Part shown: positions 3,061-13,900 of the stretch, piece by piece
How positions within the stretch are numbered: the stretch's first letter is position 1
How the letters are laid out: every line of letters begins with the position of its first letter
Source of the DNA: a bacterium
Lineage (GTDB): Bacteria; Elusimicrobiota; Elusimicrobia; UBA1565; UBA9628
Length of the DNA: 47,371 bases
Assembly (NCBI GenBank): GCA_021806745.1
Contig: JAJZQS010000007.1
Location: 1-47,371 of the forward strand
Direction: 5' to 3'
Made by a program: the position numbers and the translations under genes
The notes under the pieces: generated by a model
Told to the model about the DNA's origin: nothing
Seen by the model: the letters and a program-made list of their open reading frames with translations, nothing else
The model's database searches: none

Positions 3061-4332
3061 ATGGATTTCCCGTCCCGGGTCTACTACGGCTACCGACGCG
3101 CGCTCAAGGCGCTGGGACTTTTTTTCGCCATCGCCGGACCGGGCATCATCGTCATGGTCGCCGACAACGACGCCGGCGGCATCACCACCTACACCACCAC
3201 CGGCGCGCAGACCGGCCTGCACCTGCTGTGGTTTTTGATCCTGCTCGGGCCCGTCGCCTACTTCGTGCAGGAGATGACGGTGCGCCTGGGCGCGGTGACC
3301 AAACGCGGCCACGCGGAGGCGATCTTCGATTCCTTCGGCGCGTTCTGGGGCTGGTTTTCCCTGCTCGACCTCGTGGTCACCGACTGGCTGACGATGATCA
3401 CCGAGTTCATCGGCATGACCGCCGCGCTGAGCATATTCCATGTCCCCGCCTGGGTCACCGTGCTCATCGCCTGGGCGATCATGGGCGCGATGATCACCTC
3501 CGGACGCTACTGGACCTGGGAGAAGGCAGCGCTGGTGTTTTGCGTGATCAACCTGATCTACGTTCCCGCGGCGTTCATGATCCACCCGACGGTGCACGAG
3601 GTCCTCTACAACAGCCTCGTGCCCCATTTCCCGCCCGGCGGCCTGACCAACGACCTGTTCTTCTTGCTGATGGCCAACATCGGCACCACGATCGCGCCGT
3701 GGATGCTGTTCTTCCAGCAGAGCTCGGTCGTCGACAAGGGCATGCAGGAAAAAGACATAGCCTTCGGCAAGCTCGACACGGCGATCGGCGCGCTGCTGAC
3801 CGTGGTCGTGGCGATGGTGCTCATCGTGGTGACCGGCAAGCTCCTCTACGGCGTCCAGGTCGACGACGCGGCCGCCGCGGCGGTCAAGCTGATGCCGATC
3901 AGCCGCTACATCGGCACTTTCGTCGCCGTGGGCCTTTTCGACGCGGGGCTGCTGGGAGCGATCTGCATCTCGCTGGCCAGTTCCTGGGCCTTCGGCGAGG
4001 TGTTCGGCTGGGCGCACTCGCTCAACAACAACGTGCGCGAAGCCCCTTGGTTCTACGCCTACTACGCCTTCGACCTCCTGCTGGCGGGGACCGTGGTGCT
4101 GATTCCCGGCGCGCCGCTGGTGCTGATCACTCTGTTCGTGCAGGTGATCGCCACCACGCTTCTTCCCGCGGCGCTGGTGTTTTTGATCCTGCTGCTCAAC
4201 GACGAAAAGACGATGGGCCCCTACAAGAACACCCTGTTCGAGAACGCCGCCAACATCGGCATCACGGTCCTCATCATCGTCTTGTCGACCGCCTACGGCG
4301 TGACCACCCTGTTCCCGAACCTGCTCAAATGA
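3061..4332 (+). CDS. NRAMP-related divalent metal transporter, possibly magnesium type (NRMT-like)
   Basis: 423 residues with about eleven hydrophobic segments and the NRAMP fold. The first helix reads 'GPGIIVMVADNDAGGITT', where classical NRAMP proteins have the DPGN motif. The sixth helix reads 'MANIGTTIAPWMLFFQQSSV', where classical ones have MPHN. Loss of both motifs is known for the NRAMP-related magnesium transporters (NRMT) described in Clostridium and Eggerthella, so magnesium rather than manganese or iron is a reasonable substrate; this is inference. The next two genes overlap or nearly touch it and encode a small membrane protein and an MgtE_N/CBS protein, and MgtE_N/CBS is the magnesium-sensing module of MgtE channels, which supports the same reading. 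An ATG at 3053 is out of frame. Confidence 0.88.
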   Translation: MDFPSRVYYGYRRALKALGLFFAIAGPGIIVMVADNDAGGITTYTTTGAQTGLHLLWFLILLGPVAYFVQEMTVRLGAVTKRGHAEAIFDSFGAFWGWFSLLDLVVTDWLTMITEFIGMTAALSIFHVPAWVTVLIAWAIMGAMITSGRYWTWEKAALVFCVINLIYVPAAFMIHPTVHEVLYNSLVPHFPPGGLTNDLFFLLMANIGTTIAPWMLFFQQSSVVDKGMQEKDIAFGKLDTAIGALLTVVVAMVLIVVTGKLLYGVQVDDAAAAAVKLMPISRYIGTFVAVGLFDAGLLGAICISLASSWAFGEVFGWAHSLNNNVREAPWFYAYYAFDLLLAGTVVLIPGAPLVLITLFVQVIATTLLPAALVFLILLLNDEKTMGPYKNTLFENAANIGITVLIIVLSTAYGVTTLFPNLLK

Positions 4333-4345
4333 ACGGAGGAAGGCG

Positions 4346-4528
4346 ATGAAGCTTTTGGCCGCGATCTGGAACGACCTCGCCACCCGCGTGCGCGCGGTCA
4401 ACGAGAAGTACCGCGAGCCGCGCATCCCGATGACGCCGATGGTGCGCATGAGCCTCATCGGCCTGCGCGTCTACCTGTTCACGCTGGTCGGACTGATGCT
4501 GTTCAAGTTCGTCATGCTCGCGCGATGA
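4346..4528 (+). CDS. Small single-pass membrane protein of the metal transport operon
   Basis: 60 residues: a basic, amphipathic N-terminal half with 'NEKYREPRIPMTP' near residues 19-31, and one hydrophobic helix near 36-58 ('SLIGLRVYLFTLVGLMLFKF'). A strong Shine-Dalgarno sequence (GGAGGAAG, 4335-4342) precedes the ATG, and its stop overlaps the next gene as ATGA. I do not recognise a family. Placement between the transporter and the MgtE_N/CBS protein suggests an accessory subunit or membrane anchor linking the two; that is inference. Its good ribosome binding site, overlap and clean membrane helix argue that it is real. Confidence 0.75.
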   Translation: MKLLAAIWNDLATRVRAVNEKYREPRIPMTPMVRMSLIGLRVYLFTLVGLMLFKFVMLAR

Positions 4529-5823
4529 ACGCCGAGACCAAGACGCCAGAGAAGTTCCTACGCCTGAGCGAACTGCTCGGAGCCGAGGCCCGCGCCGCGG
4601 GCGGGCGCATCGGCGAGCTCGAAGACCTCCTCGTCGTCGACAAGGACGCCGCCGCGCTGGTCACGCACGCGCGCGTGTCGCGCCCCTACGGTCGTCCCAG
4701 CCTCAACATCCCGTGGGACAAGATCCGCGGCCTGACGAGAGACGGCCTGGACGCGCAAGTCTCGGCGGCCGAGGTCGAGGCGTTTACGGCGCCGCCCCCC
4801 TCCGGAACGATCCCGCTCAAGGACTTCGTACTCGACAAGAAAATCCTCGACGTGGACGAGCGCGAAGTCGAGGTGGTCTACGACATCCTTCTCGGCTCGC
4901 GCCGCGGCGCGCTCTACGCGGTCGAAGTCGACATCTCCGCGTTCGCTCGTCTGTCGCGGCTGGGGCTGGGGTGGCTGGCGAAAATCCTCTACCGCTCCTC
5001 CGCCGACTCGCCGCAAGGCGCCGAGCGCCGCCGCGAACGCCGCACGGTGCCGTGGGGCTACGTGCAAGCCCTGCCCGTGAATCTGGGCAGCCTCAAGGGC
5101 GACCTCAAGCTGAAGGTGCTCAAGGATCAGCTCTCCAAGATTCCCTCCGTGGATGTGGCCGACATCCTGGAGGAGCTCGAGGGCGGACAGCGCCTGGCCG
5201 TGTTCCAGCAGTTGGAGACCGACCACGCCTCGGACGCTCTCGAAGAGCTCAACCCCAAGTTCCAGCGCGACGTGATCGCGGCGCTCAAAAAAGAGCGCGC
5301 CGCCCAGCTCATCCAGGCGATGACGCCGGGCCAGGCCGCCGACTTGATGGCGGTCCTGCCGCGCGCGCAGGCCGAGGAGATATTGCCGCTGCTGTCCGCG
5401 CGCAAGGCCGACAAGGTCCGACGCATCCTCGGCGAGCAGGAGGCGCGCATCGCCGACTTCGCCTCGGCGGATTTCCTGAGATTCGCGCCCGAAACCACCG
5501 TGGCGCAGGCGCGCGAGCTTCTGCGCAAGGCCGCGCGCGAGCGCGGCCGGGACGCTCTGCTCTATCTCTATGTGCTCGACGCCGCGGGCAAGCTTTCGGG
5601 CATCGCCGCGCTGGCCGACTTGATCCTGGCCGAAGACGAGTCGACGCTCGGCTCGATCATGCGCTCGACATTCGTCTCGTTGCCCTCGTCCGGAAGCCTG
5701 AAGGACGCCGCCGAGGTCTTCCACCACTACGGCTTTCGCGCCCTGCCGGTTCTCGACGACGCCGGCGCGATGGTCGGCGTCCTGCCGCGGCGCGACGTGC
5801 CCGGCTTGCACGCGACCCCCTGA
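4525..5823 (+). CDS. Soluble PRC-barrel / MgtE_N / CBS-pair protein, probable magnesium sensor of the transporter
   Basis: 432 residues without a membrane segment. Order of parts: two PRC-barrel-like regions (about residues 10-90 and 95-170), the second containing 'LDVDEREVEVVYDILLGSRR'; a helical MgtE_N superhelix (about 195-305) with repeating 'VADILEELEGGQRLAVFQQL' and 'QAADLMAVLPRAQAEEILPL' units; and a CBS pair (about 315-425), the second ending 'YGFRALPVLDDAGAMVGVLP'. In MgtE the N and CBS domains bind magnesium and close the channel. Here the channel domain is absent and the partner seems to be the NRAMP-related transporter two genes upstream. The ATG at 4525 overlaps the small membrane gene's stop (ATGA). 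Regulation of the transporter by this protein is inferred from context. Confidence 0.88.
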   Translation: MNAETKTPEKFLRLSELLGAEARAAGGRIGELEDLLVVDKDAAALVTHARVSRPYGRPSLNIPWDKIRGLTRDGLDAQVSAAEVEAFTAPPPSGTIPLKDFVLDKKILDVDEREVEVVYDILLGSRRGALYAVEVDISAFARLSRLGLGWLAKILYRSSADSPQGAERRRERRTVPWGYVQALPVNLGSLKGDLKLKVLKDQLSKIPSVDVADILEELEGGQRLAVFQQLETDHASDALEELNPKFQRDVIAALKKERAAQLIQAMTPGQAADLMAVLPRAQAEEILPLLSARKADKVRRILGEQEARIADFASADFLRFAPETTVAQARELLRKAARERGRDALLYLYVLDAAGKLSGIAALADLILAEDESTLGSIMRSTFVSLPSSGSLKDAAEVFHHYGFRALPVLDDAGAMVGVLPRRDVPGLHATP

Positions 5824-5834
5824 GCGGGGCCAAG

Positions 5835-5843
5835 TGCTAAAAT
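5835..5843 (+). promoter_or_regulatory. Predicted extended -10 promoter of the two-component operon
   Basis: TGC followed by TAAAAT (5838-5843), then seven bases and ATG at 5851. This places +1 at 5850 or 5851. The alternative ATG at 5842 lies inside the -10 hexamer, so 5851 is preferred as the start. No -35 match at the usual distance. Confidence 0.5.
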
Positions 5844-5850
5844 GACGGCC

Positions 5851-6528
5851 ATGCGCGTTCTGATCGCCGAGGACGACGCGAAGGTCGCCAAGCACGTCCG
5901 CCAAGCGCTGACGGCCGAGGGCTACGCGGTGGACGCCGCCGAGGACGGCGACGAGGCGCTGTGGCTGGCCGAGAACAACGCCTACGACGCGATCGTGCTC
6001 GACGCGATGCTGCCGCTGCGCGACGGCTACGACGTGGCGCGCCGCCTGCGCCGCAAGGGCTGCACGACGCCGATCCTGTTCTTGACCGCCCGCGGCGAAG
6101 TCGACGACAAGGTCCGCGGACTTGACGCCGGCGGCGACGACTACATGGTCAAGCCGTTCTCGGTCGTCGAGCTCTCGGCGCGCCTGCGCGCGCTGCTGCG
6201 CCGGCGGCGGCCGCAGGCCTCGAACCTGCTGCGCGTGTCGGACCTGGAGCTCGACCTCGTGACGCGGCGCGCGCGGCGCGGCACGCGCGAGATCGAGTTG
6301 ACCAACCGCGAGTTCGCGCTGCTGGAACTGCTGATGAGCGCGTCTCCGCGCGCGGCCAGCAAGGCCGTCATCGTCGAGCGCGTCTGGGACCAATGCTTCG
6401 ACTCCGACACGAACGTGGTCAACGTCTATGTCAACCACCTGCGACGCAAGATCGACGCGCCCGGCCTGCCGCCGCTGGTGCACACGATCCGCGGCGTGGG
6501 CTTCGCGCTGAAAAGCGCCGAATCGTGA
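5851..6528 (+). CDS. OmpR/PhoB-family response regulator
   Basis: 225 residues from the ATG at 5851. The receiver domain comes first: acidic pocket 'LIAEDD', phosphate-accepting D51 in 'IVLDAMLP', switch 'FLTARGE' and lysine in 'YMVKPFSV'. It is followed by a winged-helix DNA-binding domain with the recognition-helix region 'DSDTNVVNVYVNHLRRKI' and the closing 'HTIRGVGFALK'. The histidine kinase follows with a GTGA overlap, so the two form a cognate pair. An in-frame ATG at 5842 would add three residues but sits in the predicted -10 box. Target genes are unknown; the secreted protein and porin genes just downstream are on the other strand. Confidence 0.95.
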   Translation: MRVLIAEDDAKVAKHVRQALTAEGYAVDAAEDGDEALWLAENNAYDAIVLDAMLPLRDGYDVARRLRRKGCTTPILFLTARGEVDDKVRGLDAGGDDYMVKPFSVVELSARLRALLRRRRPQASNLLRVSDLELDLVTRRARRGTREIELTNREFALLELLMSASPRAASKAVIVERVWDQCFDSDTNVVNVYVNHLRRKIDAPGLPPLVHTIRGVGFALKSAES

Positions 6529-7445
6529 GCTCCCTGTCGAGCCGGCTGTTCTGGGCCTTGAGCGCGGGATTTGCCGCCGCGACCGCGGTCTTTTGGCTCG
6601 CCGCGCGCGCGGCAGGGGCGGCGCTCGCGCCCGCCGCGCGGCCGGCCGCCGCCGTCTACGCGGCTGCGATGCTGATGCTGTTCGCGGCGGCCGCGGGCGC
6701 CTGCGGCCGGCGCTGGTCGCGAGCGCTGGCGCGCCTGGCCGAGCGTCTGGACGCGCCGCGCGGCGCGCCGCCGCCCGCCGAACCGGAGCTGCGGGAACTG
6801 GCCGCGCGCGCCGACGCTCTGCGCGCGCGCGCCGACGAGGACTTGGCGAATCTGCGCGAATACGCCGCGCGCGTCGCTCACGAACTGCGCACGCCGCTGA
6901 CGGTGCTGCGCCTCAAGATCGAGCAGGCCGCGGGCTCCATGCCCCCGGCGCTGGCCGAGGATTTGCAAAACGAATTGGCGCGCCTCAGCCGCATCGCCGA
7001 GCAGTCGATTCTGCTGGCGCGCGTCGAGCAGGGAGCGGTCGCGCCGGAGCTCGCCATCGTCGATCTCCAGCGCCTGCTCGCGGACGCGGCGGAGGATTTC
7101 CGACTGCTGGCGCGCGAGCAGGGCCGCGAGGTCCGCACGGAGCTCGAAGTCGCACCGACTCGGGGCGACGCGAAGCTTCTTCGCCAGATCTTCTACGCGC
7201 TGCTGACCAACGCCCTGCGCCACGGCCGCGGCGACATCCGCATGCGCCTGCGCGAGCACGGCGCGGGCTACTCGCTTTTGATCGTCAACGCGGCCGCCGA
7301 GCGGGCCGACGAGTCGGGACTGGGGCTGGGTCTGCGCGTGGCCGAGGCGCTCACGCGCCTGCACGGCGCCAGGCTGACCCGACGCCGCGGGCGTCAAGCC
7401 TACTCGGCCCGGATTTTTTTCCCGTCGACGGCGCCGCGGGCCTAG
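6525..7445 (+). CDS. Two-component sensor histidine kinase with a minimal sensor region
   Basis: 306 residues starting at the GTG at 6525, which overlaps the regulator's TGA. Two membrane segments (about residues 9-30 and 40-60) are joined by only ~10 residues, so there is almost no periplasmic sensor domain. A HAMP-like linker follows, then the HisKA H-box 'RVAHELRTPLTVLRLKI' with phospho-accepting H119, an N-box 'LTNALRHGRGDIRM', and a G-box 'SGLGLGLRVAEALTRLHG'. With so little outside the membrane, sensing is probably of membrane state or via another protein (inference). The stop overlaps the convergent secreted-protein gene by four bases. The frame continues upstream of 6525, but that part is antisense-like coding inside the regulator gene. 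Confidence 0.92.
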   Translation: MSSLSSRLFWALSAGFAAATAVFWLAARAAGAALAPAARPAAAVYAAAMLMLFAAAAGACGRRWSRALARLAERLDAPRGAPPPAEPELRELAARADALRARADEDLANLREYAARVAHELRTPLTVLRLKIEQAAGSMPPALAEDLQNELARLSRIAEQSILLARVEQGAVAPELAIVDLQRLLADAAEDFRLLAREQGREVRTELEVAPTRGDAKLLRQIFYALLTNALRHGRGDIRMRLREHGAGYSLLIVNAAAERADESGLGLGLRVAEALTRLHGARLTRRRGRQAYSARIFFPSTAPRA

Positions 7446-8349: not shown

Positions 8350-9675
8350 TCAGATTTCCATGTGTACGCGCACGCTCCACACCTGCACCGGACCGCGGCT
8401 GCGGTTGTAGGCCGGGTTGGCGAAGAATTGATAGTCGGGCGTCAGCCACAGCGAGGAGGCCAGCGGGACGCGGTAGTAAATCTCGGTGATCGCCTCCGGC
8501 CCGTAGTGCAAACCGCCGTCGCCCAGCATGAAGCCCTGGCCGCCGTCGGCGAGGTAGCGCCGGTGGGGCGCGTTCAGTTCATTGACGACCTCCGCCGCGC
8601 CGAGCTTGTCCTGCGGACGGCCCAGCGCCGACGGCGTCCACTCCAGACCCGCCGACTCGGACGCGTCCACTTCGACGAACGCCCAGCTCTCGTTGCGGCC
8701 GTCGCTCCAACTGTCGCGCGTGAACGCCCCGAGGCCGTCGGCGAGCTCCTGGTCGGCGTTGAACGAAAATCCGTATTTCGTGCGCCCGTAAGCCCGCGTG
8801 GCGACGATGTTCGGCGCCGCGCCCGTCGCCGCGGCCTGGGCGAGGGCTTGGTCGTAGTTTCCCATGTCGGCCTGGTTGAGATAGGCGAGTACGCGCGCGG
8901 TGCCGGAGCGCCCGGGCACCAACGAGATCGCGTGCTCGGCCTCGATGACGGAGCCGTTGGCCCTGCCGACGCGGGTGTCGAGCTGCAGCCCGTTGGCCGA
9001 GCGCGGCTCGGCGACGACGGCCGCGCGCACCGCCCAGTCGGGCTCGTGGTATTCGACCATGCCGCCCCAAGTGTAGCCGCGCGTGTCGGCCGGGTAGTCC
9101 CACGCGGCCGCGCCCATCAAAGTCCAGTTCAGGAACTGCGTGCGCGGATCGTGCGCGTAGGCGTTGTCGTCGAAGAAATCGGTCAGCGCGAACTTGCCGA
9201 GCACGATCGTCAAACGGTCGGCGTCCGCGGTAGCGGCGATTTGATTTTGATCGTCCTTGATCCGTTCGACGCCGCCGCCGAAGCCGATGCGCTGTTGCAC
9301 ATAGACGCGCGCCGTGTAGAGCGTCGGCTGCGGGTCGCCGACGCGGTAGATCTCGCCGTTGGGAAACCCCGCCAGACCCACCGCGCCTCCGATCCCGCGG
9401 CCTCCCGACAGTTCGGGGTCGAGATAGACCTCCGTGCCCGGCAGCAGCCTCGCGCCGAGAAAAAGCGTGGAGGTGACGGAGGTCGCGCTTTGCGCGTTGT
9501 TGGGAAGGCTGTTGGGCCCGGCGTAGGGCGCGTGGAAGCCGAAATCGCCCTCGTCCACGACCGTCGCCTGCGCGTGCACGGAAAACCGCGCGGGCGCGGA
9601 GGAAAAGAGGACACTCTCGTCGGCGAGCGCCGACGACGCGCAGAAGACGGCGGCCAGAGCGGGAAGAATTTTCAT
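8350..9675 (-). CDS. OprB-family carbohydrate porin-like outer membrane protein
   Basis: 441 residues from the ATG at 9675, which starts a signal peptide ('MKILPALAAVFCASSALA'). The mature protein has the OprB pattern: 'ARFSVHAQATVVDEGDFGFH' at the front, 'LYTARVYVQQRIGFGGGVER', 'IVLGKFALTDFFDDNAYAHD' followed by 'FLNWTLMGAAAWDYPAD', and a C-terminus with 'YQFFANPAYNRSRGPVQVWS' ending in a barrel-like strand 'VRVHMEI'. OprB proteins form 16-stranded channels for sugars in the outer membrane. The reading frame is open further upstream, but the extension overlaps the divergent gene's signal peptide and is not credible. Transcribed divergently from the barrel-like gene at 9782 across a 106-base symmetric intergenic region. 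Confidence 0.85.
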   Translation of the reverse strand: MKILPALAAVFCASSALADESVLFSSAPARFSVHAQATVVDEGDFGFHAPYAGPNSLPNNAQSATSVTSTLFLGARLLPGTEVYLDPELSGGRGIGGAVGLAGFPNGEIYRVGDPQPTLYTARVYVQQRIGFGGGVERIKDDQNQIAATADADRLTIVLGKFALTDFFDDNAYAHDPRTQFLNWTLMGAAAWDYPADTRGYTWGGMVEYHEPDWAVRAAVVAEPRSANGLQLDTRVGRANGSVIEAEHAISLVPGRSGTARVLAYLNQADMGNYDQALAQAAATGAAPNIVATRAYGRTKYGFSFNADQELADGLGAFTRDSWSDGRNESWAFVEVDASESAGLEWTPSALGRPQDKLGAAEVVNELNAPHRRYLADGGQGFMLGDGGLHYGPEAITEIYYRVPLASSLWLTPDYQFFANPAYNRSRGPVQVWSVRVHMEI

Positions 9676-9681
9676 GCCCGC

Positions 9682-9690
9682 ATCATCGCA
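9682..9690 (-). promoter_or_regulatory. Predicted leaderless extended -10 of the porin gene
   Basis: Minus strand TGC then GATGAT, six bases, ATG at 9675. Mirror arrangement of the promoter at 9767-9775. Confidence 0.45.
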
Positions 9691-9721
9691 CGCGCGCGCC
9701 CGCGGCTGGGGCCCGCCGGCA

Positions 9722-9735
9722 TTAAATTTATTTAA
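9722..9735. promoter_or_regulatory. Perfect A/T palindrome at the centre of the divergent porin/barrel promoter region
   Basis: TTAAAT, two T, ATTTAA: six-base arms. Its centre (9728.5) is exactly midway between the two start codons (9675 and 9782), which puts it at about -47 to -60 of both predicted transcripts. It could be an UP element shared by both promoters or an operator. No other A/T-only stretch lies in this intergenic region. Confidence 0.5.
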
Positions 9736-9766
9736 CGCTCGAGTCGCGGCGGGGCTCGCGCGCGCA

Positions 9767-10925: not shown

Positions 10926-13900
10926 TTGTCCTCGTCTCGACTGCGCCGCGCGGCCGCCGCCTCCGCCCTTTTCGGGACCTTCCTCGCCGCCGTCACGGCC
11001 CGCGCGCAAGTCTTCCAAACGCCCTACGACCCGAACTTCCCGCCCCCTCCGGCGCCCGCGGCCGCGCCGCAGCAAGTCGCGCAGTCCACCGCCGTCGAGA
11101 TTCCCGCCGAAATCGTCATCCCCACGGAGACCGCCGCCCCGCACTTCCTGCTGATGCCCCGAGCCGACATCGACCGCGTGCTGGAAGTCGAGGAGTCCAC
11201 GGCCGCCGCCGCTCCGGCCGCCGCCGCGGGCGCGCCCGCCGCGGAGCTGTCGCTGGAGAACTTCCGCCGCGTCAAGGAGGCCCTCGACCGCGGCATCAAT
11301 CCGATCCAGCCCGCTCCGAACAACCCCGAGGAGTTCGTCACCGAGACCGGGGAGATCGCGATCTCCACCGCGGCTCCCAAGCCTCCGCCGCCCGAGATCG
11401 AACTGCCCACCTACGGCACCAGTCTGTCGGTGACCGGGCGCAAGGTCATCGGATTCAACTACTCGGACAAGATGTACACCCACGACCAGACCACCACCGG
11501 CCGGCCCAAGACCACCAGCCTGATGACCATCACGCAGGCCCTCCAACTGCGCATGCAGGGCAAGGTCGGCCCCAAGATCACCGTCAACGTGGACTACGAC
11601 GACTCGCGCCCGAACCAGCAGGACATCTCGGTCATCTACCAGGGCGACCCCAACGAGACCGTGCAGAACGTCTCCTTCGGCGACATCGACCTGTCGTTGC
11701 CCGCGACCGAGTTCGTCTCCTACGACAAGCAGCTTTTCGGCATCCGCGCCGACGTCAAGTACAAGGGCTTCAAGGTCACCTTGATCGGCAGCCGCACCAA
11801 GGGCACGACCAAGACCAAGCAGTTCCACGGCAACGCGCAGTTCGTGGCCGAGGACGTGCTCGACACCGCCTACATCCGGCGCCAGTACTACGACTTGACC
11901 TTCGGCGACCCCGCGCGCCTTCCCATCCGCTCGGGCACCGAGCACGTCTATCTCGCCACGCAGGCGTTGGGGCTGACCAGCCCCAACCAGCAGCAGATCA
12001 CCGTCGACGACCTCGCCGTCCACTCGTCGACTTTCACCGGCTACTTCCAGACCCTGTCGCCGGGCGTCGACTACACGATCAACTACACGCTCGGCTACAT
12101 CCAACTGCGCACGCCGGCCCAGCCGCAATACGTGATCGCCGTCGACTACATCGACGCCTCCGGCAACGAACTGCGCTACGAGGCTTCGCCCAGCTCGACT
12201 TTGACCACCGGCGACGGGCTCTACAAGCTCATCAAGACGCCCTCCGACATCCCGATCTCCATCGACACCGCGACCGCCGCGCAGGAAGTGGGCTGGGACC
12301 GGGAGCTCAAGACTTTCTATCCCCTCGGCCAAACCTCGATCATCCCCGACAACGGCCAGGGCAACTTCATCTTGCAACTGCTCAACGCCAGCCGCCAGCC
12401 GGTGGGCGCGACTTTAAATCCCCTCCAGCTCTACCCGGCCACGATCAACGTGGATTTCACCAACGGCATCTTCCAGCTCCTGCAGCCGTTCTCGGTGTCG
12501 AATTCCTCGCCGAGCGTGCCCGATCCCAACATCTACGCGGTCACGCCGATCTCCCAGCGCCTGTTCCACGTGGAGTTCAACTACCGCTTCAAAACCTTCG
12601 CTCTCGAGCCCAACCTCGTCACCGAATCCGAAATCGTGATTCTCGACGGCCAGCGGCTGACGCGCAACGTCGACTACTTCATCGACTACACCGGCGGCTT
12701 CGTGACCTTCTTCAATCCCCAGCGCATCAACATGAACTCGGAAATCGACATCACCTACGAGGTCTCCCCGTTCGCGGGCTCAAGCAACGACACCCTGCTG
12801 GGCGGCGCCGTGTCCTACGACATCACCAAGAACATCTCCCTGGGCGGCACCGTGCTCTACGACGCCGGCGCCAAGCCCACGGTCACGCCCCAGATCACCG
12901 AGATCGCGCACAGCCTGTTCGTCTACGACTTCAACGCGCAGGTCAAGAAGCTGAGCATCGGACGGCACCTGAACGTGTCGCTGTCGGCCGAGTTCGCGCA
13001 AAGCCGCAGCACCCCGAACCTGAATCCGTACGCGATCGTCGACAACATGGAGAGCATCCTGCAGGTGATCCCGGCCAACACGATGTTCACCGCGTGGCAG
13101 ATCGCCTCCAACCCCGGCGGCATCCCGTCGGACCCGACCGAGATCACCTGGTACAACGAGTCGATTCCGACCCTGCAGATCACGCCCAACGCGCCGACCG
13201 TGGCCGGCGCGTCCAGCAACGTGCTCGACCTGCAATACAGCATGGCCAACGTCAACAGCCAGGAGATGTCGATCGTCATCCCTCTGTCGGCCACCGGCAT
13301 CGACATGTCGCAGGCCTCGACGCTGGAGATCGTCATGCTCGGCGACGGCAGCAACAACCAGCTCAATTTCCACCTGGGCTCGATCAACGAGGACGCCGAC
13401 GGCACCGGGGGCATGACGCTCTATTGCGCCAACGGCCAGGTGCGCTACAACGCGCCCAAGACCGAGAACACCGACTGCTCCGGCGTCCTCGAGCCGGGCC
13501 AAGACATCGGCTGGTGCTACGCCTACGGCGGCAACCCCTGCGCGATGCGCTACGGCGCCAACGACGGCATCATCGACACCGAGGACCTCAACGCCAACGG
13601 GCTTCTCGACCCGGCCGACCTCAGCGGCGGCGACTTCGGCTATCTGAGCCTCACCGAGCCAGGCCTCTACGACACGACCACGGCCAGCACGCACACGGCC
13701 ATCGACTTCGGCGCGGCCCAAGGCTGGCAGACGCTGGACATCCCGCTGAACATCTCCTCGACGACCGCCGGAAACTGGACGACGATCAAGCAGTTGCGCA
13801 TCTCGGTCAAAGGCGGCAACACCTGCCCCGGCGGCCAATGCGTGCTGAAATTCGCCAGCATCTCGGTGCTCGGCAACAGCTGGCTGACGGGCCAGGCCGG

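Follow-up and report, generated by a model that had tools for sequence, protein, structure and literature searches.

Transporters of the NRAMP-related NrmT type are often encoded next to proteins that resemble the cytosolic part of the MgtE magnesium channel, and the role of this MgtE-like gene has been a standing question since 2014. It is raised again by a locus in the window (the entire 47,371-nucleotide stretch of DNA analyzed here), where an earlier note described a two-gene unit and proposed that a sensor detached from MgtE had been paired with an unrelated transporter fold. The pairing is real, widely conserved and linked to Mg2+, but it had been described before: Shin et al. 2014 (PMC4072509) found that most nrmT genes adjoin a gene for a homolog of the MgtE N-domain and proposed feedback regulation, and therefore the main proposal of the note had been published. 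The locus additionally encodes a small membrane protein, a concrete candidate for the missing piece in this question.

A third gene in the nrmT operon

The transporter gene nrmT (3061..4332, plus strand) encodes a 423-aa NRAMP-related protein assigned to the probable Mg2+ transporters of the NRMT type by its match to Pfam Nramp, its DxxG/TxxA signature and its position in the tree. The sensor gene (4525..5823, plus strand) encodes a soluble protein of 432 aa, for which Pfam, PDB matches and an AlphaFold model indicate a PRC-barrel-like N-terminus followed by MgtE_N and a pair of CBS domains. According to the listing of open reading frames and the sequence itself, the space between them is filled by an ORF (4346..4528, plus strand) for a 60-aa microprotein with one transmembrane helix; the unit therefore consists of three genes and not two. 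Thus, the transporter and sensor genes of the earlier description are both real, but the gene between them was overlooked. The three genes are probably co-transcribed, because nrmT and the microprotein gene are only 13 bp apart, the microprotein and sensor genes overlap by ATGA, and a sequence scan of the window operon found no promoter-like or terminator-like sites between the genes.

The ATG of the microprotein gene is preceded by GGAGG, and the gene product combines a basic N-terminal segment with a single transmembrane helix that begins at an LRxY motif. Among 46 non-redundant copies, positions P25, L40, R41 and Y43 are invariant, whereas N19, Y22, L37, L44, K54 and F55 are nearly so; P25 is missing in the microproteins of two plasmid copies (see below). 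One strongly hydrophobic stretch is present in every copy (all 81; hydropathy of at least 1.86), and the dN/dS ratio is 0.04–0.43 in 12 informative pairs. Judged from this conservation, the microprotein is a real gene under purifying selection. It could be argued that the ORF is spurious, which would leave nothing beyond the published pair of genes, since the microprotein matches no Pfam or NCBIfam model and both plasmid records omit its gene from their gene tables. This reading is hardly credible given the dN/dS values, the transmembrane hydropathy of all copies, the conserved L, R and Y residues and the exact co-occurrence of the ORF with one nrmT clade, as described below. A small third gene of the nrmT unit was not described in the open-access papers that we searched; the microprotein thus appears to be new, whereas the pairing of transporter and sensor has been known since 2014.

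Distribution of the three-gene unit

We scanned genome contigs for related operons and took the best 80 of 297 loci. The nrmT, microprotein and sensor genes occur in the same order and on the same strand in all 80; since this set comprises the top 80 by similarity, it describes the present nrmT clade and not all NRMTs. Forty-six of these best 80 loci of 297 are non-redundant, and their NRMT proteins are 67–91% identical. By record titles, 48 of the best 80 loci fall outside the green sulfur bacteria, and they represent at least a dozen phyla, mostly as metagenome-assembled genomes. The conservation of the gene pair beyond its source genome, which the earlier note had put forward as a check, is thereby established for the closest loci. 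Pairwise distances among the three genes are correlated (0.49–0.60), which fits co-inheritance and does not show contact.

Among 199 genomes sampled from the phylum, the microprotein was confined to the three that carry the present type of nrmT clade, with no copy in the other 196 (Fisher p=8e-7). The operons of a distant nrmT clade, in which the sensor gene comes first, were ruled out as microprotein carriers, none being found in the eight phylum genomes that have them. Taken together, nrmT, the microprotein gene and the sensor gene form a conserved and testable three-gene unit.

On two conjugative plasmids, of Citrobacter freundii and Serratia marcescens (L132 and L133, about 11273–11465), the three-gene unit lies amid heavy-metal genes. 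Neither record has the microprotein in its gene table, an example of how annotation overlooks the small gene. The Acidiphilium plasmid pACRY04 (L134, 5001–7339) shows another order of genes that may serve Mg2+: an NRMT-like gene (41%) is followed by a gene for a 98-aa hypothetical protein and then by one of the MgtC family, and a metal/formaldehyde-sensitive repressor is encoded divergently.

The transporter belongs to the NRMT type

The nrmT product matches the Pfam Nramp family (6e-71) and, as the earlier note had observed, lacks the DPGN and MPHN motifs: DAGG stands at the MntH DPGN position and APWM at the MPHN position. Among proteins of solved structure, EleNRMT (7qia) is the nearest match with 220 bits, compared with 43 bits for the best MntH-type NRAMP. 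The NRMT signature defined by Ramanadane et al. 2022 (PMC8806188), DxxG in helix 1 and TxxA/T in helix 6, is present as DAGG (residues 37–40) and TTIA (residues 209–212), and both are invariant among the 46 members. In a 29-sequence tree, the MntH proteins separate as a group at 100/100; the window clade forms one supported group, and EleNRMT with the sensor-first operons another, whereas the deeper joins, including that with EleNRMT, are unsure because of long branches. The window transporter is very probably an NRMT that has Mg2+ among its main substrates. The same genome has a second NRAMP-like gene (L002, G000:C108:13984–15132), the product of which falls in another group, carries DVDAAS and AVIMPF motifs and has neither the MntH nor the NRMT signature.

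Magnesium or another metal

Regulatory elements were sought in 54 loci. M-box riboswitches are located 318–461 bp upstream of nrmT, on the same strand, in five of them (L065, L076, L082, L110 and L127), and no Mn2+ riboswitch was found in any. These five M-boxes extend the link between the M-box and NrmT to the three-gene arrangement. At the window operon itself, where the preceding gene ends 71 bp upstream, an M-box was not found. A gene for an MgtA-type ATPase, scoring above the curated cut-off, adjoins the operon in three loci (L058, L069 and L090), and a shortened MgtA-like fragment does so in a fourth (L074). The window's genome (94% complete) has one MgtA and neither CorA nor the MgtE channel domain (PF01769), a search for which control genomes gave the expected results. 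A function in Mg2+ uptake is therefore indicated by the M-boxes of five related operons, the MgtA neighbors and the lack of CorA and MgtE in the genome.

The competing possibility, that the system moves Mn2+ or another transition metal and that the MgtE-like module senses that metal, has a precedent: Shin et al. 2014 (PMC4072509) observed full rescue of Mn2+ transport, and not of Mg2+ transport, by the NrmT of A. capsulatum, which has an MgtE-like neighbor. This result warns that not all NRMTs favor Mg2+. Moreover, the two enterobacterial plasmid copies sit in heavy-metal islands, where genes close by encode a regulator of the ArsR/SmtB type and a P-type ATPase for heavy metals. However, the M-boxes precede operons of exactly the present clade, the 54 scanned loci have no Mn2+ riboswitch, and the sensor-first operons of the A. 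capsulatum type fall in another clade in this phylum. With MgtA beside the operon in relatives and no CorA or MgtE in the window's genome, a transition-metal system is improbable, and we retain Mg2+ as the likely substrate.

We also considered whether the NRMT unit replaces MgtE in relatives. MgtE is present in none of five genomes with the unit and in 26 of 45 others (Fisher p=0.02), but the replacement is only suggestive because p rises to 0.09 once the fragmentary case G015 is counted.

Downstream of the operon, the window encodes an OmpR-type response regulator (5842..6528, plus strand) and a sensor histidine kinase with HisKA and HATPase_c domains (6486..7445, plus strand; start codon uncertain), its probable partner, as well as an OprB-family porin (8353..9753, minus strand). 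Orthologs of the response regulator (69–86%) adjoin the operon in six related loci (L052, L053, L054, L058, L069 and L074), three of which also have MgtA or its fragment; relatives of the histidine kinase are found in L052, L054, L058, L069 and L074, and relatives of the porin beside seven related operons, one of them a fragment. The two-component system and the porin thus recur next to the nrmT operon across several phyla, at times with MgtA, and are possibly a dedicated Mg2+-responsive regulator and an outer-membrane route. This context suggests that the operon is part of a more extensive magnesium locus, which would be governed by a two-component system of its own instead of an M-box.

The sensor retains part of the MgtE magnesium sites

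The sensor matches MgtE_N (7.7e-23, residues 208–302) and CBS (4.3e-15, a pair at about 315–425). It has no match to the MgtE channel domain PF01769 and no plug helix, the protein stopping after the CBS pair, so that the description of a soluble PRC/MgtE_N/CBS protein without a channel holds. For the PRC-barrel, the window sensor alone fails to reach E=1; the domain was detected in 42 of 46 family members, and the beta-rich N-terminus of the AlphaFold model is compatible with it. The best PDB matches of the model (mean pLDDT 83.6, pTM 0.48) are the cytosolic domains of MgtE; given the low pTM and the large rmsd, the relative placement of the N and CBS domains in it is not fixed.

To map the Mg2+ ligands, we started from the positions at which Maruyama et al. 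2018 (PMC5882242) had introduced mutations and carried them over via the PDB alignment with TtMgtE. E59, D95 and D247 of TtMgtE correspond to D237, D273 and D424 of the sensor, positions that are acidic in 42, 41 and 44 of the 46 family members, respectively. The ligands D91 and D226 are lost, being replaced by G269 and G403. The acidic magnesium sites that the earlier note had proposed to check are thus kept in part: the residues of Mg6 and Mg7 are retained and those of Mg4 by half, but D226 of Mg5 is gone. By sequence, the protein would be a partial MgtE sensor; its gating would differ from that of MgtE and be no copy of it, because some Mg2+ ligands are lost and the plug helix is absent.

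The same losses lend weight to a reading without gating, in which the sensor and the microprotein serve in NRMT assembly, stability or turnover, as MgtS does for MgtA, or act as a metal-dependent chaperone. Shin et al. 2014 (PMC4072509) saw Mg2+ uptake rescued by the NrmT transporters of C. acetobutylicum even when the MgtE-like gene was absent, and small proteins are known to control MgtA stability through FtsH (PMC10925321). Against this, MgtE_N–CBS is a known Mg2+-gating unit, and the sensor keeps the ligands of Mg6 and Mg7. We regard non-gating roles as rather unlikely, although a stronger competitor than a transition-metal system, and continue with gating by the sensor.

Proposed mechanism

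We favor, with some reserve, a three-part Mg2+ uptake system in which the NRMT is throttled by a detached MgtE-like sensor and the microprotein is an obligate partner in the present clade. The NRMT would import Mg2+, perhaps partly hydrated, through its DAGG/TTIA site and independently of H+, as has been reported for Mg2+ transport by EleNRMT (Ramanadane et al. 2022, PMC8806188). The sensor would detect Mg2+, and possibly also a nucleotide via its CBS domains, by closure of the N domain onto the CBS pair, and at high Mg2+ it would slow the NRMT; we consider gating of this kind somewhat the likelier account of the sensor. The microprotein would most likely bind the NRMT in the membrane and help to dock the sensor or to stabilize the transporter; with its basic N-terminal segment and the Arg and Tyr residues at the helix start, it would be well positioned to tether the sensor to the transporter or to stabilize the latter. 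A physical complex of all three proteins is proposed more tentatively, at slightly less than even chances. The broader picture, of an NRAMP-fold carrier set by an MgtE sensor that docks via a single-transmembrane subunit and spread as a unit across phyla while partly replacing CorA and MgtE, is put forward with the same caution. If the sensor does gate this unrelated transporter fold, one Mg2+-sensing module would serve two different membrane machines.

Comparison with known systems

The described NrmT/NRMT systems (PMC4072509, PMC8806188) share with the window unit the transporter family, the binding-site signature, the adjacent MgtE N-domain gene and, in some members, the M-box. The gene order sets the window clade apart, with nrmT first, followed by the microprotein and the sensor, whereas the sensor gene leads in the operon tested from A. 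capsulatum and also in the related clade of this phylum, which has no microprotein. MntH (Slc11 NRAMP) has the same fold and Pfam family as the window transporter but differs in the binding-site residues, the MPH motif and the phylogenetic placement. The cytosolic domain of TtMgtE (2yvy/2zy9) has in common with the sensor MgtE_N, the CBS pair and the acidic residues of sites Mg6 and Mg7, together with half of those of Mg4; unlike TtMgtE, the sensor has neither the plug helix nor the transmembrane channel, has lost the D91 and D226 ligands and has gained a PRC-barrel-like N-terminal domain. Finally, MgtS and KdpF (PMC10925321) are, like the microprotein, short single-helix membrane proteins, each dedicated to a cation transporter; the microprotein differs from them in that it matches no family, neighbors a transporter of the NRAMP fold and is encoded inside the operon of that transporter.
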